A stretch of DNA of 64,000 nt. It comes from Imbricaverruca yamaguchii. Lineage: Eukaryota > Arthropoda > Thecostraca > Neoverrucidae. The stretch's first letter is position 1, and every line of letters starts with the position of its first letter. Location: assembly GCA_034440575.1 (NCBI GenBank), contig JAOTOL010001208.1, forward strand, positions 62,001 through 126,000, written 5' to 3'. A program made the translations under genes and the position numbers. Below are positions 29 to 60,189 of the stretch, in pieces. The notes beneath the pieces were generated by a model that did no database searches, had not been told where the DNA came from, and saw nothing but the letters and a program-made list of their open reading frames with translations.

Positions 29-142
29 CTGACCTCGCGACCCTACTCGATGCGCAGATCCAGCGGGACCAAGACCATCACTAGAGAGATACCGGACACC
101 GTCACATCGTGGGTCGGATCAGCCATCTGCTCCCACCAACAG
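29..142 (+). CDS. A2M-like gene, exon 1 of window (start of A2M domain)
   Basis: A polypyrimidine tract ending CTGTCCAG precedes base 29. The exon reads in phase 0 through [17 protein letters not shown] and ends CACCAACAG before donor GTCAGT. PDT(I/V)T.W is a hallmark of the A2M domain just after the bait region. It is 38 codons, phase 0 at both ends. The last 13 bases are copied in each unit of the array that follows. The acceptor lies only 28 bases from the window edge, so the exon start is slightly less certain than the others. Confidence 0.88.
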
Positions 143-3100
143 GTCAGTACAACAACCGCTGTTCACACCGTCAGGTCAGTACAACTACCGCTGCTCCCAC
201 CAACAGGTCAGTACGACTAACTCTGCTCCCACCAACAGGTCAGTACGACTACCGCTGCTCCCACCGTCAGGTCAGTACAACTACCGCTGCTCCCACCAAC
301 AGGTCAGTACAACTACCGCTGCTCCCACCAACAGGTCAGTACAACTACCGCTGTTCCCACTGTCAGGTCAGTACGACTACCTCTGCTCCCACCAACAGGT
401 CAGTACAACTACCGCTGCTCCCACCGTCAGGTCAGTACAACTACCGCTGCTCCCACCAACAGGTCAGTACAACTACCGCTGCTCCCACCAACAGGTTAGT
501 ACAACTACCGCTGCTCCCACCAACAGGTCAGTACAGTACCGCTGCTCCACTCAGGTCAGTACAACTACCGCTGCTCCCACCGTCAGGTCAGTACAACTAC
601 CGCTGCTCCCACCAACAGGTTCAGTACAACTACCGCTGCTCCCACCAACAGGTCAGTACAACTACCGCTGCTCCCACCATCAGGTCAGTACAACTACCGC
701 TGCTCCCACCAACAGTAGTAAACTCCTACCGTCAGGTCAGTACAACTACCGCTGCTCCCACCGTCAGTCAGGTCAGTACAACTACCGCTGCTCCCACCAA
801 CAGGTCAGTACAACTACCGCTGCTCCCACCGTCAGGTCAGTACAACTACCGCTGCTCCCACCAACAGGTCAGTACAACTACCGCTGCTCCCACCAACAGG
901 TCAGTACAACTACCGCTGTTCCCACTGTCAGGTCAGTACGACTACCTCTGCTCCCACCAACAGGTCAGTACAACTACCGCTGCTCCCACCGTCAGGTCAG
1001 TACAACTACCGCTGCTCCCACCAACAGGTTCCCACCAACAGGTCAGTACAACTACCGCTGCTCCCACCAACAGGTCAGTACAACTACCGCTGCTCCCACC
1101 GTCAGGTCAGTACAACTACCGCTGCTCCCACCAACAGGTCAGTACAACTACCGCTGCTCCCACCAACAGGTTAGTACAACTACCGCTGCTCCCACCAACA
1201 GGTCAGTACAACTACCGCTGCTCCCACCGTCAGGTCAGTACCACTACCGCTGCTCCCACCGTCAGGTCAGTACAACTACCGCTGCTCCCACCAACAGGTC
1301 AGTACAACTACCGCTGCTCCCACCGACAGGTCAGTACAACTACCGCTGCTCCCACCAACAGGTCAGTACAACTACCGCTGCTCCCACCAACAGGTTAGTA
1401 CAACTACCGCTGCTCCCACCAACAGGTCAGTACAACTACCGCTGCTCCCACCAACAGGTCAGTACAACTACCGCTGTTCCCACTGTCAGGTCAGTACGAC
1501 TACCTCTGCTCCCACCAACAGGTCAGTACAACTACCGCTGCTCCCACCAACAGGTCAGTACAACTACCTCTGCTCCCACCAACAGGTTAGCACAACTACC
1601 GCTGCTCCCACCAACAGGTCAGTACAACTACCGCTGCTCCCACCAACAGGTCAGTACAACTACCGTTGTTTCCACCGTCAGGTCAGTACAACTACCGCTG
1701 CTCCCACCAACAGGTCAGTACAACTACCGTTGTTTCCACCGTCAGGTTAGTACAACTACCGCTGCTCCCACCGTCAGGTCAGTACAACTACCGCTGCTCC
1801 CACCAACAGGTCAGTACAACTACCGCTGCTCCCACCAACAGGTTAGTACAACTACCGCTGCTCCCACCAACAGGTCAGTACAACTACCGCTGCTCCCACC
1901 GTCAGGTCAGTACAACTACCGCTGCTCCCACCAACAGGTCAGTACGACTACCTCTGCTCCCACCAACAGGTCAGTACAACTACCGCTGCTCCCACCAACA
2001 GGTTAGTACAACTACCGCTGCTCCCACCAACAGGTCAGTACAACTACCGCTGCTCCCACCGTCAGGTCAGTACAACTACCGCTGCTCCCACCAACAGGTC
2101 AGTACAACTACCGCTGCTCCCACCAACAGGTTAGTACAACTACCGCTGCTCCCACCAACAGGTCAGTACAACTACCGCTGCTCCCACCGACAGGTCAGTA
2201 CAACTACCGCTGCTCCCACCAACAGGTCAGTACAACTACCGCTGCTCCCACCGTCAGGTCAGTACAGCTACCGCTGCTCCCACCGTCAGGTCAGTACAAC
2301 TACCGCTGCTCCCACCAACAGGTCAGTACAACTACCGCTGATCCCACCGTCAGGTCAGTGCAACTACCGCTGCTCCCACCGTCAGGTCAGTACAACTACC
2401 GCTGCTCCCACCGTCAGGTCAGTACATCTACCGTTGTTTCCACCGTCAGGTCCGCACAATTAACGCAGCTCCCACTGTGAGGAATGCCGAGGCCTTGCTG
2501 AGAGGCAGGCGGGGCGGAGATTTCCGAGGGTGATTAGGAGGTGAATAGGGGGTGACTGTTTGCGATCTGATGTGCTAGTGTGCTGAGTATAATGCTGGTG
2601 TCATGCGCGATACACTCGCGAGGCGCGGGATGCTCTCGTGTGACACGTGATCGCTCCTCTCAGCGGTTGTACTTGTGGTGTCTTATCGCACTTGTTTTTG
2701 TTTTGTTTTTGTTTGTTTTTTTACAATAAATTTAGTCCGAGTTGTTGCTGGGGTGGCTTTAGGAATCAGGGTTATACTGCAAAACAGAACTTGTTGCGTT
2801 AACTCTGGCCCCACCACCCGTTCCATGGACTCCAGTTCAACGGCAGAATTTTGATCGAAAGTTTAACGTGCCGTCAATGCACCGACACGGCTGCCCGGTA
2901 GCTCGTCCCCGCCTTACTCTTCAACCTTGTCACCCCGGTCTTGCTTGGCCCGAGTGTACAGGTGCGATGACCTTGTCGCACTTGTCACACTCGGATCTCC
3001 GCACAGACTGGGCGGGCGAGCCCCCGTTATCCGTGATCTGCAGGCTGAACGTGAGCGGCCCGCAGATCTTTGGATAGCGGCAACACATGGTTTTGATTTT

Positions 3101-3890
3101 GTCCATGCAACATCATGGACATGCGATATTTCACGAAATCGTTGGACACGGCTCCTCCCCAGTCCCCCACCGTGGCGACGGCCATGAGCGTGGTCCAGCC
3201 TGGCTGGGCGTGGTCCAGCCTAGCTGGGCGTGGTCCAGTCTTGCTGGGCGTGGTCCAGTCTTGCTGGGCGTGGTCCAGCTCGGCTGGGCGTGGTCCAGCC
3301 TGGCTGGGCGTGGTCCAGCCTGGCTGGGCGTGGTCCAGCCTGGCTGGGCGTGGTCCAGCTCGGCTGGGCGTGGTCCAGCCTGGCTGGGCGTGGTCCAGCC
3401 TGGCTGGGCGTGGTCCAGTCTTGCTGGGCGTGGTCCAGCCTGGCTTGGCGTAGTCCAGCCTGGCTGGGCGTGGTCCAGCCTGGCTGGGCGTGGTCCAGCC
3501 TGGCTGGGCGTGGTCCAGTCTTGCTGGGCGTGGTCCAGTCTTGCTGGGCGTGGTCCAGTCTTGCTGGGCGTGGTCCAGTCTTGCTGGGCGTGGTCCAGCT
3601 CGGCTTGCTTTGGAACCAGGGACGCTGTCATGATTTTCGTAAGAGGAAGAGACTCGACCAGATATTTATATCCCAGGAAACGGACTGCCGTCGGCGCGAG
3701 GTGTTCCGAAGATTCGTGTTCTTTTTCATGGTCAAATCTCAAACCTCCTTACTTGATCTAGTGTATTTTATACTCCTAACGGGAGGGGGCTTGCCCTCTT
3801 GGGAGTGCCTCTGTTGGAAGCGTAGTGACAACATGAGAAACCAAGCCGGATGTTTTTGTCCTTTCTCCTCTCTAATGCCCATGGACGAGG

Positions 3891-3974
<84 letters not shown>

Positions 3975-5510
3975 GTATGCATGTATATATTAATCACGTC
4001 CATGGAAAATGAACTGGGCTGTTCGGTAGGGGCATCATCAGAACCCTCAGAACCTCAGACCCTCGGAACCATCAGAACCCCCAATGCAACTAGAGTGGAA
4101 CCAGAGTGCTATGAAACCTGCTAATGCTGTGTGTAACAGTTGGAACGTCGCTTTCTTTGAGTGACAACCGGTACCTTGCTCTGCGAGTGTTAAATGGAAC
4201 ATTGTTATCAGTGATTGATAACCGGAACCGTGTTCTCTGTGAGTGTTAAATGAAACATCGTTATCAGTGAGTGATAACCGGGACCTTATTATCCGTGAGT
4301 GACAACTGGAACCTTGATCTCTATGAGTGGTAAGTGAAACATTGTTATCAGTGAGTGACATCTGGGGCCGTGTTCTCTGGGAGTGACACCTGGGACCGTG
4401 TTCTCTGGGAGTGACATATGGGGCCATGTTCTCTGGGAGTGACATCTGGGGCCGTGCTCTCTGGGAGTGACATCTGGGGCCGTGTTCTCTGGGAGTGACA
4501 TCTGGGGCCGTGTTCTCTGGGAGTGACATCTGTGACCATGTTCTCTGGGAGTGACACCTGGGGCGGTGTTCTCTGGGAGTGACACCTGGGACCGTGTTCT
4601 CTGGGAGTGACACCTGTGACCGTGTTCTCTGGGAGTGACACCTGTGACCGTGTTCTCTGGGTGACACCGCCGTGTTCTCTGGGAGTGATGGGGCCGTGTT
4701 CTCTGGGAGTGACATCTGGGGCCGTGTTCTCTGGGAGTGACATCTGGGGCCGTGTTCTCTGGGAGTGACATCTGTGACCGTGTTCTCTGGGAGTGACACC
4801 TGGGGCGGTGTTCTCTGGGAGTGACACCTGGGACCGTGTTCTCTGGGAGTGACACCTGTGACCGTGTTCTCTGGGAGTGACACCTGTGACCGTGTTCTCT
4901 GGGAGTGACATCTGGGGCCGTGTTCTCTGGGAGTGACATCTGGGGCCGTGTTCTCTGGGAGTGACATCTGTGACCGTGTTCTCTGTGAGTGACACCTGTG
5001 ACCGTGTTCTCTGGGAGTGACATCTGGGGCCGTGTTCTCTGGGAGTGACATCTGGACCGTGTTCTCTGGGAGTGACACCTGTGACCGTGTTCTCTGGGAG
5101 TGACATCTGGGGCCTGTTCTCTGGGAGTGACATCTGGGGCCATGTTCTCTGGGGTGACATCTGGGGCCGTGTTCTCTGGGAGTGACACCTGGGGCCGTGT
5201 TCTCTGGGAGTGACATCTGGGACTTTCTCTGGGTGACATCTGGGCCGTTTTTGTGAGTGACATATGGGGCCGTGTTCTCTGGGAGTGACACCTGTGACAC
5301 TGTCGTCTGTGTGCCTGACATCCGCGCGCCTGCAGGAGGGATTCGGTGTGTCCAACAAGTCCACCATCATCGCTTTTAAGCCGTTCTTCACCGAGGTCAC
5401 CCTGCCGTACTCACTGAAGCGTGGCGAGATCCTCAACATGTCGACGACGGTCTTCAACTACCTGGACTCGAGCCTCTCGGTCAGTTCCTACCTCCGAAGT
5501 TCCACCGTAT

Positions 5511-5542
<32 letters not shown>

Positions 5543-5544
5543 CT

Positions 5545-5630
<86 letters not shown>

Positions 5631-8600
5631 TATGTATATATATGTATGCATATGTGCGTTATGTATGTATATGTGTATAGAGTTCAGCAGTGTTTCTGGT
5701 GTCTACAATTCATTGGTGAAATGGCCTGAACCGCCTTCCGGTCGGAGCGATATTCAATCCCAGAGTTCGGATCAGCACATCTTCGAGACTATTATCGGTG
5801 GACACACACCACCAGGAAGTCTCTGATGACCATTCCACGGGCGGTAATATGCCTGGCTAGCAGTCGCTCTGTAGTTTATGTCGGGTGAGTTGCGAGGCCA
5901 GAAGAGGGGATGGCTGGCCTCCACTGAGCCGCCGGCCGCCTGGCTAATCCACACTTAGTAGTGGACGGCCACGAAGTGTGTCCGAGGTCACACTTCTCGG
6001 CACTGCAGCGTCGCTGACTGAGGCCACCGAACCGCTCCAAGATGAAGATGAAGCTGAAGGAAGGGCCGGGCGAACTGCGCGCAGCCGGCGAGTGGAAGCC
6101 GCCGGCGCTCGGGGAGACTGGGGAGCGCTCAAGGAGACTGGGGAGCGCTTGGGGGGACTGGGGAGCGCTCAAGGAGACTGGGGAGCGCTCGGGAGGGGGA
6201 CTGGGGGCGCGGGGAGACTGGGGAGCGCTCAAGGAGACTGGGGAGCGCTTGGGGGGACTGGGGAGCGCTCAGGTAGACTGGGGAGCGCTCGGAGAGACTG
6301 GGGAGCGCTCGGAGAGACTGTGGAGCGCCCGGAGAGACTGGGGAGCGCTCGGGGAGACTGGGGACCGCTCGGAGAGACTGGGGAGCGCTCGGGTAGACTG
6401 GGGAGCGCTCGGGGAGGCTGGGGAGCGCTCGGGGAGGCTGGGGAGCGCCGCAGACGGGCAGCAGATGCGCGCGGGAGCACGGATGTTAAATTAGCACTTC
6501 ACACGACTTAATGAAATGAAGTTCGCGATTGATACTTTTTCACAAGTTCTATGCACAAGGAAGGTGATTTGTAATGTAAGCAATTTCGGATATGTGTTTC
6601 AAATGTCTTATTGATCTAGTGCTTGGTGTAGAACCTTTGTAGATTAGTGGCTAGGCGACCCAGCTTTGCCAGATATGACATGATGGACCGAATAATTCTG
6701 GAAATTGTTTAACTTGTCTCTATTAACACAGAAAATTTGCAAATGAAAGACCAATAACTGATATCTTAAATAAATAATTTTGCCAGAAGTTCATACATAC
6801 TGAAATATACAAGCGGAGAGATTCAAGACCTTGAAATTGACACTTACGCATCTTGTGGAAAGTATGAGGCCGTACATGTTCTTGGCATTGTTGGTCGCTG
6901 CAGGGATATTTGAGAACGTCGTGGAGATAGGCAGATGAATGGGTTGAGAACCCGCACACCCGAGTCATCTTTGCAACTTTCGCCGCTCGACGCTAGAAAA
7001 TGCATTGATGTAGTCGAGTTTGAAGTTGCGTGAGTCCTCCTCGACACTGGCCTTCGCGGAGTGGGTCACCGTAGCTCAGTCGGAGGAGCGTTCCACTCTT
7101 GGTGGTAGGACCGTGGGCTGGAATCCCGCGGCCGGCGGGATCGTCGCTTCAGTCGGCGGACAATCGGCGTGGGAAGTTGGCGACGTTGTGTGACCCAGCA
7201 GTCGAACATGTGGTAAAAGAGTCCAAGGCTTCTCTTCTGCTATTGCTAGTCGATGCGCCCTAAAGCCCTGATAAACAACTAACGGTTCTTCTTTTGCTGT
7301 TGGGTAGTGTCACAAGAAATGTGATCGATGGTCTTATGAGTGTCACCAGGAGTGTCATGAGTGTCACCAGAAGTGTCATGAGCGATACCAGGAGGTATGA
7401 GCGTCACCATGAATGTCATAGAGGAGTGTCTCCAGGAGTGTCATGAGGAATACCAGGAGTGTCATGAGCGATACCAGGAGTGTCACCATGAATGTCGACA
7501 AGAGTGTTTCCATGAGTGTCATGCACCAGGTTCACCGTTGGGGTGTGGCCGGCAGGTGTATGTGAGGAGTGTGACTCACTGTTGGGGTGTGGTGCATGTG
7601 AGGAGTGTGACTCACTGTTGGGGTGTGGTGTATGTGAGGAGTGTGACTACTGTTGGGGTGTGGCCGGCAGGTGTATGTGAGGAGTGTGACTCACTGTTGG
7701 GGTGTGGTGCATGTGAGGGGTGCCCTGTTGGGGTGTGGTGGGCCTGTGGGGTGGGTGATGTGAGGAGTGTGACTCACTGTTGGGGTGTGGTGTATGTGAG
7801 GAGTGTGACTCACTGTTGGGGTGTGGTGTATGTGAGGAGTGTGACTCACTGTTGGGGTGTGGTGCATGTGAGGAGTGTGACTCACTGTTGGGGTGTGGTG
7901 TATGTGAGGAGTGTGACTCACTGTTGGGGTGTGGTGTATGTGAGTGTGACGTGTGACTCACTGTTGGGGTGTGGTGCATGTGAGGAGTGTGACTCACTGT
8001 TGGGGTGTGGTGCATGTGAGGAGTGTGACTCACTGTTGGGGTGTGGTGCATGTGAGGAGTGTGACTCACTGTTGGGGTGTGGTGTATGTGAGGAGTGTGA
8101 CTCACTGTTGGGGTGTGGTGTATGTGAGGAGTGTGACCCCCTGTTGGGGTGTGGTGCATGTGAGGAGTGTGACTCACTGTTGGGGTGTGGTGCATGTGAG
8201 GAGTGTGACTCACTGTTGGGGTGTGGTGCATGTGAGGAGTGTGACTCACTGTTGGGGTGTGGTGTATGTGAGGAGTGTGACCCCCTGTTGGGGTGTGGTG
8301 CATGTGAGGAGTGTGACCCCCTGTTGGGGTGTGGTGCATGTGAGGAGTGTGACTCACTGTTGGGGTGTGGTGTATGTGAGGAGTGTGACCCCCTGTTGGG
8401 GTGTGGTGTATGTGAGGAGTGTGACTCACTGTTGGGGTGTGGCCGGCAGGTGTATGTGAGGAGTGTGACTCACTGTTGGGGTGTGGTGCATGTGAGGAGT
8501 GTGACCCCCTGTTGGGGTGTGGCCGGCAGGTGTATGTGAGGAGTGTGACCCCCTGTTGGGGTGTGGTGCATGTGAGGAGTGTGACTCACTGTTGGGGTGT

Positions 8601-11600
8601 GGTGTATGTGAGGAGTGTGACTCACTGTTGGGGTGTGGTGCATGTGAGGAGTGTGACTCACTGTTGGGGTGTGGCCGGCAGGTGTATGTGAGGAGTGTGA
8701 CTCACTGTTGGGGTGTGGTGTATGTGAGGAGTGTGACTCACTGTTGGGGTGTGGTGTATGTGAGGAGTGTGACCCCCTGTTGGGGTGTGGTGCATGTGAG
8801 GAGTGTGACTCACTGTTGGGGTGTGGTGTATGTGAGGAGTGTGACTCACTGTTGGGGTGTGGCCGGCAGGTGCATGTGAGGAGTGTGACTCACTGTTGGG
8901 GTGTGGTGTATGTGAGGAGTGTGACTCACTGTTGGGGTGTGGTGTATGTGAGGAGTGTGACCCCCTGTTGGGGTGTGGTGCATGTGAGGAGTGTGACTCA
9001 CTGTTGGGGTGTGCGGCAGGTGTATGTGAGGAGTGTGACTCACTGTTGGGGTGTGGTGTATGTGAGGAGTGTGACTCACTGTTGGGGTGTGGTGTTGTGA
9101 GGTGTGACCCCTGTTGGGGTGTGGTGCATGTGAGGAGTGTGACTCACTGTTGGGGTGTGGTGTATGTGAGGAGTGTGACTCACTGTTGGGGTGTGGTGCA
9201 TGTGAGGAGTGTGACTCACTGTTGGGGTGTGGTGCATGTGAGGAGTGTGACTCACTGTTGGGGTGTGGTATGTGAGGAGTGTGACCCCTGTTGGGGTGTG
9301 GTGCATGTGAGGAGTGTGACTCACTGTTGGGGTGTGGTGTATGTGAGGAGTGTGACTCACTGTTGGGGGTGGGTGGTGTGCCCTGTTGGGGTGTGGTGTA
9401 TGTGAGGAGTGTGACTCACTGTTGGGGTGTGGCCGGCAGGTGTATGTGAGGAGTGTGACTCACTGTTGGGGTGTGGTGCATGTGAGGAGTGTGACCCCCT
9501 GTTGGGGTGTGGCCGGCAGGTGTATGTGAGGAGTGTGACCCCCTGTTGGGGTGTGGTGCATGTGAGGAGTGTGACTCACTGTTGGGGTGTGGTGTATGTG
9601 GAGGTGTACTCACTGTTGGGGTGTGGTGCATGTGAGGAGTGTGACTCACTGTTGGGGTGTGGGTGTATGTGAGGAGTGTGACTCACTGTTGGGGTGTGGT
9701 GTATGTGAGGAGTGTGACTCACTGTTGGGGTGTGGTGTATGTGAGGAGTGTGACTCCCTGTTGGGGTGTGGTGTATGTGAGGAGTGTGACTCACTGTTGG
9801 GGTGTGGTGTATGTGAGGAGTGTGACTCACTGTTGGGGTGTGGTGCATGTGAGGAGTGTGACTCACTGTTGGGGTGTGGTGTATGTGAGGAGTGTGACTC
9901 ACTGTTGGGGTGTGGTGTATGTGAGGAGTGTGACTCCCTGTTGGGGTGTGGTGCATGTGAGGAGTGTGACTCACTGTTGGGGTGTGGGTGTATGTGAGGA
10001 GTGTGACTCACTGTTGGGGTGTGTGTGAGGAGTGTGACTCACTGTTGGGGTGTGGTGTATGTGAGGAGTGTGACCCCTGTTGGGGTGTGGTGCATGTGAG
10101 GAGTGTGACTCACTGTTGGGGTGTGGTGCATGTGAGGAGTGTGACTCACTGTTGGGGTGTGGTGCATGTGAGGAGTGTGACTCACTGTTGGGGTGTGGTG
10201 TATGTGAGGAGTGTGACCTGTTGGGATGTGAGGAGTGTGACTCACTGTTGGGGTGTGGTGTATGTGAGGAGTGTGACCCCCTGTTGGGGTGTGGTGTTGT
10301 GTGGGGTGTCACTGTTGGGGTGTGGCGGCAGGTGTATGGGGAGTGTGACTCACTGTTGGGGTGTGGTGCATGTGAGGAGTGTGACCCCTGTTGGGGTGTG
10401 GCCGGCAGGTGTATGTGAGGAGTGTGACCCCCTGTTGGGGGTGTGGTGCATGTGAGGAGTGTGACTCACTGTTGGGGTGTGGTGTATGTGAGGAGTGTGA
10501 CTCACTGTTGGGGTGTGGTGTATGTGAGGAGTGTGACTCACTGTTGGGGTGTGGTGTATGTGAGGAGTGTGACTCACTGTTGGGGTGTGGTGTATGTGAG
10601 GAGTGTGACTCACTGTTGGGGTGTGGTGTATGTGAGGAGTGTGACTCACTGTTGGGGTGTGGCCGGCAGGTGTATGTGAGGAGTGTGACTCACTGTTGGG
10701 GTGTGGTGTATGTGAGGAGTGTGACCCCCTGTTGGGGTGTGGTGTATGTGAGGAGTGTGACTCCCTGTTGGGGTGTGGTGTATGTGAGGAGTGTGACCCC
10801 CTGTTGGGGTGTGGTGTATGTGAGGAGTGTGACTCACTGTTGGGGTGTGGTGTATGTGAGGAGTGTGACTCACTGTTGGGGTGTGGTGTATGTGAGGAGT
10901 GTGACTCACTGTTGGGGTGTGGTGTATGTGAGGAGTGTGACTCACTGTTGGGGTGTGGTGTATGTGAGGAGTGTGACTCACTGTTGGGGTGTGGTGTATG
11001 TGAGGAGTGTGACCCCCTGTTGGGGTGTGGTGTATGTGAGGAGTGTGACCCCCTGTTGGGGTGTGGTGCATGTGAGGAGTGTGACTCACTGTTGGGGTGT
11101 GGTGTATGTGAGGAGTGTGACTCACTGTTGGGGGTGTGGTGTATGTGAGGAGTGTGACTCACTGTTGGGGTGTGGTGTATGTGAGGAGTGTGACTCACTG
11201 TTGGGGTGTGGTGTATGTGAGGAGTGTGACTCACTGTTGGGGTGTGGTGTATGTGAGGAGTGTGACCCCTGTTGGGGTGTGGTGCATGTGAGGAGTGTGA
11301 CCCCCTGTTGGGGTGTGGTGCATGTGAGGAGTGTGACCCCCTGTTGGGGTGTGGTGCATGTGAGGAGTGTGACTCCCTGTCGGGGTGTGGTGCATGTGAG
11401 GAGTGTGACCCCCTGTTGGGGTGTGGCCGGCAGGTGTATGTGGAACTGGCGTCGTCCAAGCAGTACGTGCTGGCTGGCGAGGCGGCCCCCTCCGGCGCCG
11501 ACCTGTGTCTCGCCGCCGGCCGATCCAAGGTCACCTACTTCCCGCTGACCTTCAGCGGCATCAGCGAGGTCAATGTCACCGTCACGGCTCGACTCAAGGA

Positions 11601-41690: not shown

Positions 41691-41833
41691 AAATAAAGAC
41701 ATAAAATATCAGTGCAACTATGAGCCACAAACACCCTTCTTGGTTGCAATCTGGACATTCAACCAGTTTCCCATAAAATCCGTCGATCAGCCCTCCCTAG
41801 AATACTGAAAAGCCTATTCTTAACATGCTCCCT
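41691..41833 (-). mobile_element. LINE 3' fragment, same family as 22101-23323
   Basis: AAATAAAGACATAAAATATC then AGTGCAACTATGAGCCACAA and CAGCCCTCCCTAGAATACTG align with 22105-22250. It is a severely 5'-truncated copy of about 140 bases on the minus strand. Confidence 0.88.
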
Positions 41834-42690: not shown

Positions 42691-42693
42691 ACG

Positions 42694-46379: not shown

Positions 46380-46383
46380 CTGC

Positions 46384-46660
46384 CGGCCGTGGACAGAGTG
46401 CACCAGACCTATTTTAGGCAGTTGTCGTTGGACGTTCTGAAGCGTGGACGGAGTGCGCCGGCATTATTTGGGGCAGTTGTCGTTGGACATTCTGAAGCGT
46501 GGACGGAGTGCGCCGAACCTATTTGGGGCAGTTGTTGTTGGACATTCTGAAGTGTGGACGGAGTGCGTTGGACCTATTTGGAGCAATTGTCGTTGGACGT
46601 TCGGAAGCGTGGACGGAGTGCGCTGGACCTATTTGGGGCAGTTGTTGTTGGACGTTCTGG
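46384..46660 (-). repeat. 55-bp minisatellite, about five copies, seeded on coding end and stop of the CaMKII-AD-like gene
   Basis: On the minus strand each unit contains GAACGTCCAACAACAACTGC then CCCAAATAGG, i.e. the last codons of the gene plus TAG, followed by about 25 bases of 3' sequence. The first copy is the true gene end. Confidence 0.93.
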
Positions 46661-46749
46661 AGCGGTGGCCGTGCACATATTTCCACGCGCCGTCACGCCG
46701 GTGCCAGATCCTGGTCTCCTCGGTATGCCGCACGTGTGGCTTGGCGTCG
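46629..46749 (-). CDS. CaMKII-AD-like gene, last coding exon
   Basis: On the minus strand, acceptor TATGTCACAG, split Ser codon, then DAKPHVRHTEETRIWHRRDG, AWKYVHGHRSRTSNNNCPK and TAG. It matches [30 protein letters not shown]. Between the Asp of exon 4 and EETR the spacing is identical to CaMKII. The end of the exon, stop included, is the unit of the 55-bp array downstream. Confidence 0.94.
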
Positions 46750-48238: not shown

Positions 48239-48331
<93 letters not shown>

Positions 48332-50644: not shown

Positions 50645-50716
<72 letters not shown>

Positions 50717-53700
50717 ACATTTACAGAAGCAATTTACTACCCACGTTTTCAAGCTGTATCAATTTCATGATTTATGTGCAGTTTGGAACTAATGGTTGGA
50801 TGCGGGTATGCCCAAGCAAGCATGCATTCATACACCCGGTGACACCGGTCCAATTTGCTGGCTTACACCCTGCCAATGGCGACAGGTCGCCAGAAGCTGC
50901 GACACGACTCTACCGGTTATACGTGTGTCGTTCTACCGGTGTTCCGCTCTACCGGTGATACGTGTGTCGTTCTACCGGTGTTCCGCTCTACCGGTGATAC
51001 GTGTGTCGTTCTACCGGTGTTCCGCTCTACCGGTTATACGTGTGTCGTTCTACCGGTGTTCCGCTCTACCGGTGATACGTGTGTCGTTCTACCGGCGTTC
51101 CGCTCTACCGGTAATACGGGTCATTCTACCGGTGTTCCGCTCTACCGGTGATACGTGTGTCATTCTACCGGCGTTCCGCTCTACCGGTAATACGGGTCGT
51201 TCTACCGGTGTTCCGCTCTACCGGTAATACGGGTCATTCTACCGGTTTTTCGCTCTACCGGTGATACGTGTGTCGTTCTACCGGCGTTCCGCTCTACCGG
51301 TAATACGGGTCGTTCTACCGGTGTTCCGCTCTACCGGTAATACGGGTCATTCTACCGGTGTTCCGCTCTACCGGTGATACGTGTGTCGTTCTACCGGCGT
51401 TCCGCTCTACCGGTAATACGGGTTGTTCTACCGGTGTTCCGCTCTACCGGTGATACGTGTGTCATTCTACCGGTGTTCCGCTATACCGGTGATAGGTGTG
51501 TCATTCTACCGGCGTTCCGCTCTACCGGTAATACGGGTCGTTCTACCGGTGTTCCGCTCTACCGGTAATACGGGTCATTCTACCAGTTTTTCGCTCTACC
51601 GGTGATACGTGTGTCGTTCTACCGGCGTTCCGCTCTACCGGTAATACGGGTCGTTCTACCGGTGTTTCGCTCTACCGGTAATACGGGTCATTCTACCGGT
51701 GTTCCGCTTTACCGGTGATACGTGTGTCGTTCTACCGGCGTTCCGCTCTACCGGTAATACGGGTTGTTCTACCGGTGTTCTGCTCTACCGGTAATACGGG
51801 TCATTCTACCGGTGTTTCGCTTTACCGGTGATACGTGTGTCGTTCTACCGGTGTTTCGCTTTACCGGTGATACATGTGTCGTTCCTGGTGGCACAATGCT
51901 GACGCCGAGTTCGTTGCACCTAAGCAGGGTAGCTTACTGATGTTACCGGGTTAGTCTACACATTGCCGGTGCATAAAGATGGCGAATGATGAGAGGAGAG
52001 AAGCAGGTTCCCCGACTCTGAGTGAATGCTATCATCAATATTATGGGCGTTGCATGGAAATAGTGAAATTCAAGATTGTCGTTGACACCTGCCTCGTGCT
52101 AGCCGAGTCTGCGATGGTTGCAGTGCATTTGATATACGAGGACGGTGGCGATGGTGATATTGATGTAAGGAAGTTTTTCTCCCCCAAAGCTTCATCAGGT
52201 GTTTTCAAAATTGTCTGAAACAAATTTCCCTTTGACACGTAGATAGACTATAGGACCTCGATGTTTGTGATATTTAAAATCCCAGGTATAAATTCAATAG
52301 CTCTAAGTCTCCATATCAGAGCTCTGATTCAAACACATGTTGATAGGCACCACACAAATCCAGCAGTCATCCAATATTCCACGTCCCTATTACATTCATA
52401 AATCATGCACATAATATATTAGACGCACGTAGCATCATGCATACTTGCCCTATGCATACCTGCAACGTGGTATGACGTTTGCAATACCTCTGTCATCCCA
52501 CATGCACACATACTGCATTCGAGATGTACCTGTTATTATACCTACTTCACATTGCGGTCGCACAGGCTATCTTGGCCCAGTGGCAGGACCTGTCACATCT
52601 CAGCCACACTACTGTAATCTCACTGTCATTCCACTCAGCCACACTACTGTAATCTCACTGTCATTCCACTTAGCCACACTACTGTAATCTCACTGTCATT
52701 CCACTCAGCCACACTACTGTAATCTCACTGTCATTCAACTCAGTAGTACTGACGCACGTGTTCTGTTAGACAATTGTCATACTACTCATATACTCACACA
52801 CCTGTAGTCATTGGGCGCAAAATGACCCTAGATGTCGACGCGCCCCTAAACTCCAATCCACCACCACCTGTAGTCATATAAACGCCACACACACACATTC
52901 GTCCATAGGGTTCCCAGAGTGGACTGACACATACTGTTACCCGTGACGGTCACATCCAACCGTCAGACACTGACATGTCAATATTAGTCAGACAGCGGCA
53001 GCCGACGGCGGCGGGGTGTAGCGAGGTCACGTCGTCAGACACAGACACAGTCATCAGACATCAGAGACAGCGGCGGCCGACGGCGGCGGGGTGTAGCGAG
53101 GTCACGTCGTCAGACACAGACACAGTCATCAGACATCAGAGACAGCGGCGGCCGACGGCGGTGGGGTGTAGCGAGGTCACGTCGTCAGACACAGACACAG
53201 TCATCAGACATCAGAGACAGCGGCGGCCGACGGCGGTGGGGTGTAGCGAGGTCACGTCGTCAGACACAGACACAGTCATCAGACATCAGAGACAGCGGCG
53301 GCCGACGGCGGTGGGGTGTAGCGAGGTCACGTCGTCAGACACAGACACAGTCATCAGACATCAGAGACAGCGGGGGGCGGCCGACGGCGGTGGGGTGTAG
53401 CGAGGTCACGTCGTCAGACACAGACACAGTCATCAGACATCAGAGACAGCGGCGGCCGACGGCGGTGGGGTGTAGCGAGGTCACGTCGTCAGACACAGAC
53501 ACAGTCATCAGACATCAGAGACAGCGGCGGCCGACGGCGGTGGGGTGTAGCGAGGTCACGTCGTCAGACACAGACACAGTCATCAGACATCAGAGACAGC
53601 GGCGGCCGACGGCGGTGGGGTGTAGCGAGGTCACGTCGTCAGACACAGACACAGTCATCAGACATCAGAGACAGCGGCGGCCGACGGCGGTGGGGTGTAG

Positions 53701-56700
53701 CGAGGTCACGTCGTCAGACACAGACACAGTCATCAGACATCAGAGACAGCGGCGGCCGACGGCGGTGGGGTGTAGCGAGGTCACGTCGTCAGACACAGAC
53801 ACAGTCATCAGACATCAGAGACAGCGGCGGCCGACGGCGGTGGGGTGTAGCGAGGTCACGTCGTCAGACACAGACACAGTCATCAGACATCAGAGACAGC
53901 GGCGGCCGACGGCGGTGGGGTGTAGCGAGGTCACGTCGTCAGACACAGACACAGTCATCAGACATCAGAGACAGCGGCGGCCGACGGCGGCGGGGTGTAG
54001 CGAGGTCACGTCGTCAGACACAGTCATCAGACATCAGAGACAGCGGCGGCCGACGGCGGTGGGGTGTAGCGAGGTCACGTCGTCAGACACAGACACAGTC
54101 ATCAGACATCAGAGACAGCGGCGGCCGACGGCGGTGGGGTGTAGCGAGGTCACGTCGTCAGACACAGACACAGTCATCAGACATCAGAGACAGCGGCGGC
54201 CGACGGCGGTGGGGTGTAGCAGGTCACGTCGTCAGACACGGACACAGTCATCAGACATCAGAGATCAGAGACAGCGGCGGCCGACGGCGGTGGGGTGTAG
54301 CGAGGTCACGTCGTCAGACACAGACACAGTCATCAGACATCAGAGACAGCGGCGGCCGACGGCGGTGGGGTGTAGCGAGGTCACGTCGTCAGACACAGAC
54401 ACAGTCATCAGACATCAGAGACAGCGGCGGCCGACGGCGGTGGGGTGTAGCGAGGTCACGTCGTCAGACACAGACACAGTCATCAGACATCAGAGACAGC
54501 GGCGGCCGACGGCGGTGGGGTGTAGCGAGGTCACGTCGTCAGTCAGACACAGTCATCAGTCATCAGACATCAGAGACAGCGGCGGCCGACGGCGGTGGGG
54601 TGTAGCGAGGTCACGTCGTCAGACACAGACACAGTCATCAGACATCAGAGACAGCGGCGGCCGACGGCGGTGGGGTGTAGCGAGGTCACGTCGTCAGACA
54701 CAGACACAGTCATCAGACATCAGAGACAGCGGCGGCCGACGGCGGTGGGGTGTAGCGAGGTCACGTCGTCAGACACAGACACAGTCATCAGACATCAGAG
54801 ACAGCGGCGGCCGACGGCGGTGGGGTGTAGCGAGGTCACGTCGTCAGACACAGACACAGTCATCAGACATCAGAGACAGCGGCGGCCGACGGCGGTGGGG
54901 TGTAGCGAGGTCACGTCGTCAGACACAGACACAGTCATCAGACATCAGAGACAGCGGCGGCCGACGGCGGTGGGGTGTAGCGAGGTCACGTCGTCAGACA
55001 CAGACACAGTCATCAGACATCAGAGACAGCGGCGGCCGACGGCGGTGGGGTGTAGCGAGGTCACGTCGTCAGACACAGACACAGTCATCAGACATCAGAG
55101 ACAGCGGCGGCCGACGGCGGTGGGGTGTAGCGAGGTCACGTCGTCAGACACAGACACAGTCACACAGACACAGTCATCAGACATCAGAGACAGCGGCGGC
55201 CGACGGCGGTGGGGGTGTAGCGAGGTCACGTCGTCAGACACAGACACAGTCATCAGACATCAGAGACAGCGGCGGCCGACGGCGGTGGGGTGTAGCGAGG
55301 TCACGTCGTCAGACACAGACACAGTCATCAGACATCAGAGACAGCGGCGGCCGACGGCGGTGGGGTGTAGCGAGGTCACGTCGTCAGACACAGACACAGT
55401 CATCAGACATCAGACATCAGAGACAGCGGCGGCCGACGGCGGTGGGGTGTAGCGAGGTCACGTCGTCAGACACAGACACAGTCATCAGACATCAGACATC
55501 AGAGACAGCGGCGGCCGACGGCGGTGGGGTGTAGCGAGGACACAGACACAGTCATCAGACATCAGACATCAGAGACAGCGGCGGCCGACGGCGGTGGGGT
55601 GTAGCGAGGTCACGTCGTCAGACACAGACACAGTCATCAGACATCAGAGACAGCGGCGGCCGACGGCGGTGGGGTGTAGCGAGGTCACGTCGTCAGACAC
55701 AGTCATCAGACATCAGAGACAGCGGCGGCCGACGGCGGTGGGGTGTAGCGAGGTCACGTCGTCAGACACAGACACAGTCATCAGACATCAGACATCAGAG
55801 ACAGCGGCGACCGACGGCGGTGGGGTGTAGCGAGGTCACGTCGTCAGACACAGTCATCAGACATCAGAGACAGCGGCGGCCGACGGCGGTGGGGTGTAGC
55901 GAGGTAACGTCGTCAGACACAGACACAGTCATCAGACATCAGAGACAGCGGCGGCCGACGGCGGTGGGGTGTAGCGAGGTCACGTCGTCAGACACAGACA
56001 CAGTCATCAGACATCAGAGACAGCGGCGGCCGACGGCGGTGGGGTGTAGCGAGGTCACGTCGTCAGACACAGACACAGTCATCAGACATCAGAGACAGCG
56101 GCGGCCGACGGCGGTGGGGTGTAGCGAGGTCACGTCGTCAGACACAGACACAGTCATCAGACATCAGAGACAGCGGCGGCCGACGGCGGTGGGGTGTAGC
56201 GAGGTCACGTCGTCAGACACGGACACAGTCATCAGACATCAGACATCAGAGACAGCGGCGGCCGACGGCGCCGGAGAGTCAGCTATGTAACTTGACCGGA
56301 AGGGGAGGGGAAGCAATAGACCGCTGGCCTCGGCAGCTTGGCTAGAGCACTGCTTGAATAAGTAGCGACCGGTCGGCGCCGGGACTGATGATTTCCTGTC
56401 GCGGTACCTGTCGTTACATGAGCGCGGCAGGATAAAGATTAAACTTCCGGGTTCCAAGTGTCCCCATATGAAGCTTTGCTACCTACAGTTGAATTGGTAT
56501 GGCGTGTGGCAGCCCACAGGGGTATTAAGTGCACAATTGATGTAAGTGGTGCGTATTGTCTCTTATTGTGCTTGCCTTGCGCTTCCATCTTACCACTGAT
56601 GGAAGTGTTAGAAGAGGAATACTTACACAAATTCTTCGTAGTTTCCCGAGACGAATGTATTGACGAGTTGGGTCACCAGTTGGACCATCTCGGCCTTCCT

Positions 56701-59518
56701 GCTCTCCTCCTGTGCTGCAACTACCAGCACAAACAGGATCAAGTATCCACATGATTTACATTGAGCACAGCGGCGGCGGCGCGGGTAACACGTCATGACT
56801 AGGATCCGGCTGTGATCTGCGGCTGATAAATAGCTTACCGGAAGAAACTGCGTGGCGACTCGAGAGTGGCGAGGGCGTGTAAGAGCCACACTAAAAACTG
56901 ATGTCGGGGGATCCATTAACGGGTCCCTGGGAGGGGAATGTGGGCATCCCCTTGCCGTGCAAATGGGAGTCAGACAGTCATTTACCTCTCCCCTTTTGGT
57001 CGGGAAAAATATCATCACCGAATGCAGACAACAGTGGCGATGCCCGGACTTTCCTAGCGGGGCCAGACAAAAAATAACCTAAACAAACGGATCATGAGGA
57101 GCGCCGAAATTTAGGGTTGTTCGTGGTGAACATGACAAAATTGCTTCCTTGTTTCTTCTTGTTCTTGTTCGTGCTCCTTGATTGTAGCACGCTTTTTGTT
57201 GCTCAGGGGAGGCCAGGCCTCCCCCCCCCCCAAGTTTGTACTTCTGACAATCCAAATGTTTTGCTCTCCCAAACGAAAGGAAGTGGTTTCCTGACCTACG
57301 TCACCTCGGAACATACACAGCTGATCGGCTTTGAATGCGTGTAGTTCGTGGGTAACGATAAATATGTGCACAACTAAGGGGAATTTAGAAAACAACAAGT
57401 GGTTAAATGGTTATGAGCTAGCCCTATACCATCGATTACACCCACTGGTGAAAGCACTAGCGCACTAGTCAACCACTCAGTGTAATGCGACACTTGACAT
57501 CACTACCCCATGGATCTTTCGTCACCCCTCCCCTCCCTCCTTCTCAACGGATCCTTCAGTCAAGGTCACGTCGGGTCTTGAGGACTACCCCGGCCCTCAC
57601 GAGTCGGGACGAACGCGGACACTCGAAGTGCATGTTTCGGTGCCGTTTCTGCTCAGGATAGATCACCACGCGATTTTGCGGTATGGGACTGAACAATCTT
57701 GGGCCAGGCTTGAAAAGCTACTCGATGGCTGTGGAACTTATATTTGCGTTATGTCTCTGCTATATAGAACGTAATGTCTGAATGTTTCCGATGAATTGTG
57801 TGATTTTCGGTACTCGCTGGTCTGGGTGCATGTTCGGTACTGGCTGGTCTGGGTGCATGTTCGGTACTCGCTGGTCTGGGTGCATGTTCGGTACTGGCTG
57901 GTCTGGGTGCATGTTCGGTACTGGCTGGTCTGGGTGCATGTTCGGTACTGGCTGGTCTGGGTGCATGTTCGGTACTGGCTGGTCTGGGTGCATGTTCGGT
58001 ACTGGCTGGTCTGGGTGCATGTTCGGTACTGGCTGGTCTGGGTGCATGTTCGGTACTGGCTGGTCTGGGTGCATGTTCGGTACTGGCTGGTCTGGGTGCA
58101 TGTTCGGTACTGGTCTGGGTGCATGTTCGGTACTGGTCTGGGTGCATGTTCGGTACTGGCTGGTCTGGGTGCATGTTCGGTACTGGCTGGTCTGGGTGCA
58201 TGTTCGGTACTGGCTGGTCTGGGTGCATGTTCGGTACTGGTCTGGGTGCATGTTCGGTACTGGCTGGTCTGGGTGCATGTTCGACGTCTTAATCATAAGA
58301 GTTTATTTTATGCCTGGTCTATGGCGCATAGAAAATAACTCTTGAAAACAATGTTGAAGTGGATTATTTGTACTCGGTGAAGAGAAGTGGGACCGTCAGG
58401 TTACCGGGGGAACTAGGGGCATATACCCTCTCCTCTGGAAAGGTGGCGCCCTCCGAAAGGAGTCCCTTTAGAAAGGTGCAAATTCGCCTCTTGAGACGAA
58501 AAAGTGACCCTTCAGTGTGCTCTCGTGCAGCCTTCCTCCCCTTCGCCGAACCGATTTATCTGTCGAGGCTGCCCTACCAGGACGTGTGCCCCATAATTGT
58601 CAGGATCCCCCCTGGAATTGAGAAGGGTGTGTCACCCAGTGATGTCGTGATTGTTGTGTCGTGTGGGGCGTCAGTAATCTGATTGTTGTGTCGTGTGGGG
58701 CGGTATAGCTTTTACGTGATAATCTGGCAGGATGCAGTGATGTCAGTAATCTGTCAATCTGAAGACGGGGCGTGGCATTGGTGTTATTATTGGCAACAAG
58801 TGAAAGGCGCTGGAGTATAGTACTTGTCATGAAACGAGCAGTCAAGGGGGCGAAGGCCTAATCCCTCACCCTTTTAGCAATCTAAAATACACGAGGTGAA
58901 ACGAGAAGTTTTTATATTGTCATCAAGCAATTGCAACCATTTTCGGCACCCGAAACGCGCAGAAAATTGAGAATTGAGACATTTAAGAAAACTTTCGGAT
59001 TAAGAAAGCTTAGGTTGGAGAAAATTGAGAACGCTTTCGGCGCGCGTCATGCGACAAAAGCTGTTAGGTTCTTCACCTTTTTTTTCGTCTGGCCCCGTCA
59101 GGAAAATCATGGCTGCACCATTGTCTGTCATAGAGCATCATGTATCATTCTTTGGTTGTTGTTCGTTTGCGTGTATCATCAACAGAGACAGGCTCCACTG
59201 GCATGTAACGTCAAGGTTTAGAAGACATCAAGAACAATGCACAGGTGGGTAATGATACCCAGCCTAAGGAATACAAATTGTGCGTCATTCCCTAATTGTG
59301 TACATACTCAAGACAGTGGATGCAGTTCACAATACACTCATGTCGATTTGAGCACTGGGTGCAGATGTTGGAGGCGCTGCACAAGCTGCAGCCACCGAAG
59401 CTGTTGAAGCTGCTGTGGATCCACTCCACTCACCAGGGGCGTTGCCGATGGCGGGCTCTGCCATCACCAGCGAGCAGCAGGTGGCCAGCAGCGGCAGCAG
59501 CAGCGTGGACAGCCGCAT
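46629..59518 (-). CDS. Secreted CaMKII association-domain (SnoaL/NTF2-like) protein, five coding exons
   Basis: Exons in transcript order: 59518-59434, 56714-56627, 50215-50121, 48583-48475, 46749-46629. All junctions are GT-AG with matching phases and give about 165 residues. The first about 20 residues form a signal-peptide-like stretch (MRLSTLLLPLLATCCSLVMA). The rest aligns along its length with the CaMKII association domain: AEMVQLVTQLVNTFVSGNYE, LTDPNLTAF, GDLVHGLDFHKFYFD, NATILSPHVQFLGDD, VAYIAYVRLDQFLD, TEETRIWHRRDGAWK. In CaMKII this alpha+beta barrel builds the 12-14 subunit ring. Here no kinase or linker is present in the window. It is probably a secreted oligomeric or ligand-binding protein; the function is unknown. 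Coding exons further upstream (above 59547) cannot be excluded, because the frame stays open back to the acceptor before the ATG. Confidence 0.9.
46750..48130 (-). other. Intron 4 of the CaMKII-AD-like gene, unique part
   Basis: No exon is required here. A G-run (47000-47010) and scattered ATATCGC(G/T)GGAGTT motifs (47808-47870, 48107-48125) suggest decayed repeats. Confidence 0.45.
48160..48422 (+). repeat. (CTCTCA/CCCTCA)n simple repeat
   Basis: CT-rich start, then about 25 perfect CCCTCA hexamers (48220-48360) with one CCCTAA, then (ACTCTC)n. It resembles a telomere-type hexamer but is TGAGGG, not TTAGGG, and lies inside an intron. Confidence 0.95.
48450..48475 (-). repeat. CAGGA pentamer repeat at the exon 4 donor
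   Basis: On the minus strand the donor GACAG|GTCAGG is followed by four (GACAG) units. It looks like slippage of the donor junction itself. Confidence 0.85.
48475..48583 (-). CDS. CaMKII-AD-like gene, exon 4 (central beta strands)
   Basis: On the minus strand, acceptor CTGCCGATAG, split Val codon, then LGRRIGNATILSPHVQFLG and DDVAYIAYVRLDQFLD, donor GACAG|GTCAGG. It matches [28 protein letters not shown]. It is 109 bases, phase 1 in and phase 2 out. The loop before NATIL is two residues shorter than in CaMKII. The acceptor pyrimidine tract is weak. Short CAGGA repeats follow the donor. Confidence 0.92.
48600..49035 (-). repeat. About 30-bp minisatellite before exon 4 of the CaMKII-AD-like gene
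   Basis: On the minus strand the units (ACCTATGTTACTCGTGCCCG then AGACAATG) resemble the sequence just upstream of the exon 4 acceptor (ACCTGTGTTAACCGTACTGC). The array ends at that acceptor. Confidence 0.9.
49285..49885 (+). repeat. 20-bp minisatellite, about 29 copies (intron 3 of minus-strand gene)
   Basis: The unit is GGATCTGCTGCAGTGTCGGT with GCCCTG, TTGGT and GGTGCAG variants. Each unit has a PstI-like CTGCAG. The frames through it are spurious. Confidence 0.95.
50121..50215 (-). CDS. CaMKII-AD-like gene, exon 3 (DFHxFYF core)
   Basis: On the minus strand, acceptor GACGGTCCAG then a split Val codon and RLTDPNLTAFMMETIGDLVH and GLDFHKFYFDH, donor ACG|GTAAGT. It matches [29 protein letters not shown] nearly residue for residue. 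It is 95 bases, phase 2 in and phase 1 out. Confidence 0.95.
50216..50640 (-). other. Intron 2 of minus-strand gene, unique part next to exon 3
   Basis: The segment 50300-50560 resembles 2680-3000 (both carry TTGTTGC, CTCTGGCCCC/CTGGCCCC, CATTCCATG and GTGCATTGACACG/GTGCACCGACACG-like stretches), so a dispersed repeat is present in both introns. Confidence 0.5.
50650..50715 (+). repeat. (TA)n microsatellite
   Basis: About 32 uninterrupted TA dinucleotides. Confidence 0.98.
50905..51885 (+). repeat. About 39/36-bp minisatellite of TTCTACCGGTGTTCCGCTCT type
   Basis: Units alternate GTTCTACCGGTGTTCCGCTC then TACCGGTGATACGTGTGTC, and a shorter form ending TACCGGTAATACGGGTC. The submotif CTACCGGT occurs twice per unit. 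It lies in intron 2 of the minus-strand gene. Confidence 0.96.
52585..52745 (+). repeat. 36-bp repeat, about 4.3 copies
   Basis: The unit is CAGCCACACTACTGTAATCT then CACTGTCATTCCACT. Uniform copies. The flanking DNA (51890-52584) shows no gene. Confidence 0.95.
52985..56272 (+). repeat. 75-bp minisatellite, about 44 copies (intron 2 of minus-strand gene)
   Basis: The unit holds AGACAGCGGCGGCCGACGGC, GGTGGGGTGTAGCGAGGTCA, CGTCGTCAGACACAGACACA and GTCATCAGACATCAG. A period of 75 keeps one frame open for 714 codons (GCSEVTSSDTDTVIRHQRQR repeats). Copies are almost identical; variants are ACACAGAC or ACATCAG internal duplications. Confidence 0.97.
56273..56626 (-). other. Unique part of intron 2 next to exon 2
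   Basis: No additional exon is needed; exons 2 and 3 join in phase. Nothing else is recognised. Confidence 0.45.
56627..56714 (-). CDS. CaMKII-AD-like gene, exon 2 (N-terminal helix)
   Basis: On the minus strand, acceptor GTAGTTGCAG, split Ala codon, then QEESRKAEMVQLVTQLVNTF and VSGNYEEF, with donor GT|GTAAGT. It matches the [23 protein letters not shown] helix of CaMKII association domains. It is 88 bases, phase 1 in and phase 2 out, both fitting the neighbouring exons. Confidence 0.88.
56715..57806 (-). other. Intron 1 of minus-strand gene, unique part
   Basis: A short plus-strand frame (57132-57344) starts with a hydrophobic stretch, but it crosses a C-run and has no family match, so it is not called. 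Fragments here resemble other dispersed GC-rich repeats. Confidence 0.4.
57810..58285 (+). repeat. 27-bp minisatellite, about 18 copies (intron 1 of minus-strand gene)
   Basis: The unit is TTCGGTACTGGCTGGTCTGG then GTGCATG. Some copies lack TGGC. All frames are open because the period is divisible by three. Confidence 0.96.
58286..59433 (-). other. Intron 1 of minus-strand gene, unique part
   Basis: It includes decayed element-like DNA at 58390-58625 and duplicated TGATTGTTGTGTCGTGTGGG at 58650 and 58681. No exon is evident. Confidence 0.4.
59434..59518 (-). CDS. CaMKII-AD-like gene, first coding exon (signal peptide)
   Basis: On the minus strand the ATG at 59518-59516 starts MRLSTLLLPLLATCCSLVMA, then EPAIGNAP and a phase-1 donor CCTG|GTGAGT. 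The hydrophobic core followed by small residues fits a signal peptide cleaved after VMA. Upstream, an acceptor ACGTTTTCAG puts the exon start at 59547, leaving 29 bases of probable 5' UTR. Confidence 0.8.
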
Positions 59519-59547
59519 GGTCAGCGCTGGCCTCTGCAACGGCCGGG
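59519..59547 (-). other. Probable 5' UTR part of the same exon
   Basis: On the minus strand, acceptor ACGTTTTCAG is followed by CCCGGCCGTTGC and then the ATG. The frame is open here, so it could instead be coding continuation from an upstream exon. The same acceptor and exon start are echoed in the 55-bp array immediately upstream. Confidence 0.55.
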
Positions 59548-59815
59548 CTGAAAACGTGGACACGTGACCTCTCGGGTGACCAGGTCAGTGCTGGACTCGG
59601 AGCGAGAGGGCTGAACACGTGACCTCTCGGGTGAACAGGTCAGTGCTGGCTCGGGGGGCTGAACACGGACCTCTCGGGTGACCAGGTCAGTGCTGGACTC
59701 GGAGCGAGAGGGCTGAACACGTGACCTCTCGGGTGACCAGGTCAGTGCTGGACTCGGAGCGAGAGGGCTGAACACGTGACCTCTCGGGTGACCAGGTCAG
59801 TGTTGGACTCGGAGC
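59548..59815 (-). repeat. 55-bp minisatellite, about five copies, carrying acceptor-like copies upstream of the signal-peptide exon
   Basis: On the minus strand the units read GTCACGTGTTCAGCCCTCTC then GCTCCGAGTCCAGCACTGAC. The exon itself begins ACGTTTTCAG|CCCGGCC and continues GGCCAGCGCTGACC, so the unit is a diverged copy of acceptor plus exon start. Confidence 0.88.
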
Positions 59816-60107: not shown

Positions 60108-60189
60108 TTACCTCAGCGGTCAGTTGGACGTCAGGCGGTGAGCGAAAAAAAAACTGCGCAAAATGGCACCGCAGGCTGCTCTGCGCAGA

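Follow-up and report, generated by a model that had tools for sequence, protein, structure and literature searches.

Minisatellites copied from exon edges in an A2M-like gene of the barnacle Imbricaverruca yamaguchii

A 64,000-bp stretch of the barnacle Imbricaverruca yamaguchii (assembly GCA_034440575.1, contig JAOTOL010001208.1, positions 62,001 to 126,000; hereafter the window) carries an A2M-like gene, apparently an immune gene, and a second gene on the minus strand. We found that many of the arrays in the A2M-like gene repeat a piece of DNA that crosses an exon edge, and that the same holds for the stop codons of both genes. The analysis covers one window and one haplotype and uses DNA sequence alone. 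Positions below are those of the window, and the gene models are as follows.

2-37776, forward strand: A2M-like gene of 16 exons, built by in-frame translation with GT-AG introns
2 (start uncertain)-142, 5336-5479, 11434-11639, 14941-15026, 17066-17178, 18280-18430, 19070-19207, 20727-20827, forward strand: exons 1-8 of the A2M-like gene
23808-23987, 25596-25728, 27933-28087, 29493-29657, 30943-31026, 32166-32364, 34702-34874, 37744-37776, forward strand: exons 9-16 of the A2M-like gene
59434-59518, 56627-56714, 50121-50215, 48475-48583, 46629-46749, minus strand: five-exon gene, leader plus CaMKII association domain (PF08332, 9.6e-38)

All 19 introns of the two genes are GT-AG, and the frames are open to the stop. 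The window holds the A2M-like gene from the A2M domain through the stop codon at 37774-37776, with Pfam matches to TED (3.8e-69), A2M (3.8e-22), and A2M_recep, the receptor-binding domain (3.2e-19). Among the best 8000 candidates scored, its closest protein is the murinoglobulin-1-like isoform X2 of Pollicipes pollicipes (P0001; 66% identity over 98%), followed by other Pollicipes proteins (54-63%) and proteins of Amphibalanus (33-44%). Both the Pfam and the protein matches were computed on an earlier, nearly identical gene model. The starts of exons 6 and 9 were placed using Pollicipes proteins, while the remaining exons were placed independently of them; this comparison replaced earlier starts (misplaced for exon 6, too short for exon 9) by 18280 and 23808, giving a continuous frame and more exon bases in the array at the exon 9 acceptor. 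The start of exon 1 is uncertain, as the open frame reaches the window edge and an AG also occurs at 27-28, and it was excluded from the junction count. The thioester motif is GCGEQ. By eye, the A2M-like protein reads VPRGGAEPS at the expected thioester site (within 18280-18430), and the Pollicipes proteins read GGGETN, GGETN, GGGEPN, or GGGEHN there, likewise without cysteine. The minus-strand gene (46629-59518) joins a leader that by eye resembles a signal peptide to the CaMKII association domain; Pfam found no kinase domain in it.

Arrays were called with Tandem Repeats Finder (TRF) at a score of at least 50, which returned 52 arrays covering 31,078 of the 64,000 bp (48.6%), 42 of them with a period of at least 10. 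In addition, 41 boundaries (38 splice junctions, two stops, and one start) were compared with their surroundings by aligning an 80-base segment centred on each with the 5 kb to its left and right, after masking the match to itself. This local self-alignment detected tandem copies with exon bases at 10 of the 38 splice junctions, namely, six donors (exons 1, 3, 4, 9, 10, and 13) and four acceptors (exons 3, 5, 9, and 11), and at both stop codons. The affected boundaries scored 42 to 148. At 150 control positions free of arrays, the 95th percentile was 32 and the highest score 46, so that the exon 3 donor with its two copies (score 42) falls within the control range; its copy-to-copy match, however, was reached by 0 of 500 shuffles. 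Thus, of the 13 places at which the first-pass annotation had reported arrays copying a junction or a stop, 12 hold. At the remaining one, around exon 1 of the minus-strand gene, the array copies a stretch just upstream of the ATG (score 33; 0 of 500 shuffles) and not a junction. The annotation had also placed such arrays throughout two unrelated genes, which was overstated, since they occur at 10 of the 30 A2M junctions but at none of the 8 junctions of the minus-strand gene. The arrays, with an insertion that splits one of them, are listed below (lengths of exon and intron parts in nucleotides, nt).

127-2475, forward strand: exon 1 donor array, 32-bp unit (16 exon and 16 intron nt), about 73 copies, from TRF and alignment
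7555-11442 (TRF limit 11426), forward strand: exon 3 acceptor array, 36-bp unit with 9 exon nt, the final copy being the working acceptor as judged from the fit to the protein
11626-11690, forward strand: exon 3 donor pair, two copies of a 34-bp unit (14 exon nt), missed by TRF at score 50
15004-15133, forward strand: exon 4 donor array, 49-bp unit (23 exon and 26 intron nt), three copies and a decayed fourth
16035-17072, forward strand: exon 5 acceptor array, 35/70-bp unit with 5-7 exon nt, 30 copies
21966-23823, forward strand: exon 9 acceptor array, 55-bp unit, 12 copies, split at about 22100-23323 by the next feature
22100-23323, minus strand: fragment of a long interspersed nuclear element (LINE) that encodes reverse transcriptase (PF00078, 1.5e-24), interrupts the exon 9 acceptor array, and has GAGGC at each of its ends
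23967-25294, forward strand: exon 9 donor array, 33-bp units (21 exon nt), then decayed units, then a 38-copy 31-bp array
25712-25914, forward strand: exon 10 donor array, 46-bp unit (17 exon nt), four copies found
26484-27966 (TRF limits 26566-27966), forward strand: exon 11 acceptor array, 52/38-bp units (34 exon nt), 31 copies found
31005-31677, forward strand: exon 13 donor array, 30-bp unit (22 exon nt), 22 copies
37757-39065, forward strand: stop-codon array of the A2M-like gene, 31-bp unit spanning the TAA, about 42 copies
46388-46664, minus strand: stop-codon array of the minus-strand gene, 55-bp unit, five copies, each with TAG or TAA by eye
59519-59816 (TRF 59560-59816), minus strand: array directly upstream of the start codon of the minus-strand gene, including no splice junction

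Every unit at the 12 affected boundaries is part exon and part intron, or part coding sequence and part 3' untranslated region (UTR). The exon portion of the splice-array units ranges from 5 to 34 nt, and the units therefore have no one fixed offset from the junction. Three of the 12 unit lengths (32, 34, 49, 33, 46, 30, 36, 35, 55, 52, 31, and 55) are divisible by 3. A period-5 array (48450-48480) overlaps the exon 4 donor of the minus-strand gene by its TRF limits, and the alignment there contained no exon bases. An 11-bp array at the exon 14 donor was considered as a further array seeded from the donor itself and rejected, because 481 of 500 shuffles attained its score.

The unit at the exon 9 acceptor contains 16 well-matched exon nucleotides, and the exon 9 bases beyond these are similar, in register, to the remainder of the unit (0 of 1000 shuffles). 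Likeness scoring as high was found in 5 of 4354 other array-free stretches and in none of 213 exonic ones. When exon sequence further in was compared with the intron part of the unit in all ten splice arrays, the exon 9 acceptor alone showed resemblance, with the others matched by 93 to 883 of 1000 shuffles. Judging from these alignments, the unit, in the stretch 21956-23862, probably holds about 45 exon nucleotides out of 55, whose match to exon 9 has decayed in the meantime. Inspection by eye shows GTGC at either end of this seed, a possible microhomology.

The exon joins were compared with Pollicipes proteins. The alignment with P0001 contains one gap in all, which lies more than 8 residues from every one of the 15 exon joins; the one with P0002 has four gaps, one of them near the exon 5/6 join, which no array straddles; and the one with P0004 covers joins 1-9 and has no gaps at those. 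The gap-free joins indicate that the exon sequence predates the arrays and that the copy fitting the protein is the outermost one, i.e., the first for donors and stops and the last for acceptors. From this fit, the outermost junction copy appears to be the working one.

Among copies found under a mismatch limit, the exon 1 donor array keeps the GT in 73 of 74, and 69 of the 74 match the donor consensus (MAG/GTRAGT) at least as well as the authentic site does. Provided that splicing uses the outermost site, which the protein implies, position and not motif must decide among such decoys. The GT copies of this array are spread evenly over the three frames (24, 24, and 25). At the other donors, GT is kept in 2 of 2 (exon 3), 3 of 3 (exon 4), 3 of 6 (exon 9), 4 of 4 (exon 10), and 22 of 22 copies (exon 13), and at the acceptors, AG is kept in 13 of 62 (exon 3), 30 of 30 (exon 5), 12 of 12 (exon 9), and 26 of 31 (exon 11). 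The exon 13 donor array is a codon multiple, with 20 of its 22 GT copies in frame and an open frame (30931-31776) in register with exon 13, so that donor skipping would add in-frame repeats of 10 residues.

The arrays form a series of copy numbers, from two at the exon 3 donor and three with a decayed fourth at the exon 4 donor to 22 at exon 13 and 73 at exon 1. This series is consistent with one process caught at different stages, and the LINE within the exon 9 acceptor array means that this array is older than the insertion. The earlier suggestion of different ages of one process is thus compatible with these cases. By eye, the LINE-like element has an octamer-type tail, ATAAAGAC, and its 3' end occurs a second time at about 41693-41800.

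In the exon 9 donor array, exon-like 33-bp units give way to decayed units, and these to a homogeneous run of 31-bp units. The authentic unit and the 31-bp unit, compared directly, have no significant likeness (50 of 500 shuffles); we link them because the bridge units between them match the one side and the other (0 of 500 shuffles in each case; the second of the bridging stretches takes in the first 31-bp copy). In amphioxus mirages, units at the boundary escape homogenization. In six arrays of the window, the units at the far edge were compared with those in the interior: they were more diverged at exons 1 and 13, as was one of the two such units at exons 5 and 11, and no more diverged in the exon 9 acceptor and A2M stop arrays. 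Divergence tracked distance from the exon in two of seven arrays (exon 13, p 0.006; exon 11, p 0.014), and a general decay gradient away from the exon was therefore set aside. Among eight arrays in which columns were compared, exon-derived columns vary more than intron- or UTR-derived ones at exon 1 (0.065 vs 0.030), exon 13 (0.085 vs 0.023), the A2M stop (0.058 vs 0.000), and, slightly, exon 11 (0.036 vs 0.028), and the reverse pattern was seen at the exon 4 donor, the exon 5 and 9 acceptors, and the stop of the minus-strand gene.

To compare array placement with chance, we used nulls in which each array was collapsed to one unit, because each array represents one birth event. Seeds were placed at random; those lying wholly in exons were forbidden (selection) and straddling ones were allowed (tolerance). 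A naive null with full-length arrays, which would cover about half of all positions and let the finding look unremarkable, was judged wrong on the same ground. TRF arrays of period at least 10 comprised 39 events in the window, 32 of them intron arrays; 9 of these straddled an exon edge, which is 9 of the 26 intron arrays of the A2M-like gene. The window-wide null with a 5-nt overlap expected 1.06 (0 of 200,000 simulations reached even 8), the same null with a 3-nt overlap expected 1.24 (P 5e-6), and placement of seeds within their own introns expected 1.53 (P 5e-6). Both stop codons were hit, compared to an expectation of 0.06 (P 0.0015) or, with GC-weighted seeds, 0.10 (P 0.004). Without any hand decisions (TRF limits and the best-scoring period capped at 60), 8 of 37 arrays straddled against 2.53 expected (P 0.0023). 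Thus, straddling arrays in the window, all of which lie in the A2M-like gene, are 3 to 9 times commoner than under random placement, and the first-pass claim of more than chance placement is borne out.

Arrays also gather close to exons without entering them. Four further arrays stop short of an exon, ending no more than 15 nt from the junction (expected 0.85). In the A2M-like gene, 17 of 26 intron arrays either straddle an edge or lie within 45 nt of an exon, whereas 4.63 are expected and 0 of 400,000 simulations reached this number; at cut-offs of 15, 30, and 60 nt, the counts were 13, 14, and 17 against 2.79, 3.71, and 5.54.

We propose that these arrays are mirages, a term used for similar repeats in amphioxus, and that duplications arise more often near exon edges and survive since one copy of the junction stays intact. 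We give this reading a probability of about 0.55. An array would be born by a short tandem duplication, of about 30-55 bp, of DNA across an exon edge, and the rate of such births would be raised near the exon edges of the A2M-like gene; nucleosome edges or transcription-linked nicks, for instance, are candidate sources of the raised rate. Purifying selection would clear duplications lying wholly in exons, while edge-straddling ones would persist, since one intact junction is left in the old place for the spliceosome or, at a stop, for the ribosome. The extra copies would land in the intron or the UTR since the fitting copy is the outermost, and unequal exchange or slippage may later amplify and homogenize them. 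Preferential duplication at junctions and tolerance of straddling duplications had been offered as alternatives. The gap-free joins support tolerance; on its own, however, it falls short, because nulls that already grant it expect 1.1-2.5 straddlers where 8-9 were seen. A seeding bias near the edges is thus also needed, unless the introns were only about 100-150 bp long at the time.

Several points weigh against this proposal. The count of 9 straddlers and the nearness counts involved hand-set periods for six clusters (one at an old value) and three mergers of pairs, and the exon 3 acceptor entered the straddler count by alignment and not by TRF limits; the two-copy exon 3 donor was omitted. 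The excess is smaller under strict calling, and at a TRF score of at least 300, it amounts to 5 of 21 against 1.52 expected (P 0.012). The absence of gaps at the exon 6 and 9 joins is in part by construction, as these starts were set with Pollicipes proteins. Every splice case is in one gene. None of the six intron arrays of the minus-strand gene lies near an exon at any cut-off, where 0.42-0.81 were expected (0.68 at 45 nt); this is weak evidence either way, and the A2M-like gene is the one gene in which the edge effect is shown. Last, uniform introns of 100-150 bp would yield 10.7-7.8 straddlers by chance.

On that last calculation rests the rival in which chance and tolerance suffice: the introns would have measured about 100-150 bp when the arrays were born and would have grown later through arrays and insertions. 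The LINE in intron 8 is younger than its array, and the present lengths of unique sequence therefore overstate those at birth. Nevertheless, the straddled A2M introns now contain 362-2184 bp of non-array unique sequence (the upper value includes the LINE), and published mean intron lengths are 2,077 bp for Pollicipes (PMC8917513) and, as a value described as too low, 706 bp for Balanus improvisus (PMC8270832). These lengths speak against short introns, which we regard as unlikely but as a serious contender. Base composition might instead account for the pattern if seeds come from GC-rich DNA, exons are GC-rich, and only duplications reaching the intron survive. The units are indeed closer to exons (56% and 60% GC) than to unique intron sequence (47%); however, a GC-weighted null, with weights from the 28 non-straddling units, raised the expectation only to 1.62 (P 5e-6) or 1.88 (P 2.5e-5) against the 9 straddlers seen. 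A GC preference explains little of the excess, and as the main cause, it is improbable.

The assembly itself may be at fault, as apparently happened with one amphioxus globin mirage in a draft genome, according to PMC3087553. Copy numbers may be wrong here, too. That the arrays as such are artefacts is very improbable given the scattered differences among copies, the mixture of 52- and 38-bp spacings in the exon 11 array, and the LINE within one array. We attach next to no weight to the remaining two accounts. Tandem duplication of an exonic AGGT stretch could have made the intron, so that array and intron are one, and one published proposal has new introns arising from mirages (PMC3087553). 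The ends of an intron are alike, though, in none of the 19 introns at a threshold of at most 3 in 300 shuffles (the nearest being A2M intron 4 with 10 and intron 14 with 15 of 300), and the straddled introns keep their 362-2184 bp outside the arrays. Alternatively, the extra splice sites or stops might be selected for alternative splicing, splice-site redundancy, or coding repeats. Many decoys do retain GT or AG, and the exon 13 array keeps nearly all of its GT copies in frame. The exon 1 copies, by contrast, favor no frame, few unit lengths are multiples of 3, AG is mostly lost in the exon 3 acceptor array as is GT in half of the exon 9 donor copies, and the exon-derived columns are the better conserved ones in some arrays and the less conserved ones in others.

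Mirages were described in amphioxus as tandem repeats across exon-intron boundaries, at both 5' and 3' ends, that leave the regular mRNA intact (PMC3087553, PMC3902484). They occur in Adh3 and the globins BflGb6 and BflGb9 (PMC3087553), and also in TnC, and repeats of PGBD5 have been likened to them (PMC3902484). In the passages of both reports that deal with mirages, splice signals are present in many but not all copies, and the units measure 10-72 bp in Adh3 and 150-160 bp in the globins. Since their units span exon-intron boundaries, the barnacle arrays are mirages by the amphioxus definition; as in those passages, they cross donors and acceptors alike, and many copies contain GT or AG. They differ in occurring in an arthropod, in affecting 10 junctions of a single gene, in reaching tens of copies, and in including stop codons; stop-codon arrays do not appear in the amphioxus mirage passages of the two reports. 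Splicing and instability were tested in amphioxus, as those passages describe, whereas the barnacle arrays are known from the DNA of one haplotype. Intron gain by tandem duplication, the Rogers model (cited in PMC3087553), of which a potato RdRp case has been described (PMC4974935), likewise involves a short tandem duplication touching AG/GT, but in the barnacle, the intron ends are unrelated and existing introns were enlarged. In unit size, homogeneity, and the presence of variant units, the arrays are like ordinary intronic minisatellites; unlike those, more than a third of the A2M intron arrays include exon bases. A search of the open literature for a barnacle mirage case returned none, with barnacle terms combined with minisatellite once only. 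On this search and these passages, the barnacle mirages, their density in one gene, and the stop-codon arrays are new.

Studies of minisatellite birth are hampered by the usual loss of the seed. In this gene, coding sequence conserved in Pollicipes orients the seed and makes unit limits and breakpoints readable. The locus further amounts to a set of natural constructs with dozens of near-perfect tandem donors (73 GT at exon 1), on which the choice of the outermost site by the spliceosome can be tested. More tentatively, and with somewhat less than even odds, exon edges may be true hot spots of minisatellite birth in barnacles, acting within tens of bases on either side and at stops too, with mirages arising independently in arthropods and cephalochordates and contributing much of intron growth. 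If the process were general in barnacles, it would not be confined to amphioxus, and the repeat content of about 3% reported for related genomes may miss much. Repeats make up 3.2% of the Pollicipes genome by RepeatMasker, with 18.5% masked by WindowMasker (PMC8917513), and 3.53% of that of Capitulum mitella (PMC8416341). Next to the 3.2% and 3.53% of these reports, the TRF coverage of the window was nearly half.

Three other features lie outside the two genes.

41168-41239, minus strand: tRNA-Pro gene, anticodon agg
59772-61268: 498-aa open frame that crosses a 24-bp array; Pfam returned no match at E 0.01
62519-63610: frame resembling a retrotransposon gag, with a zf-CCHC zinc knuckle (4.2e-05) and a Retrotrans_gag match (0.00013) below its cut-off

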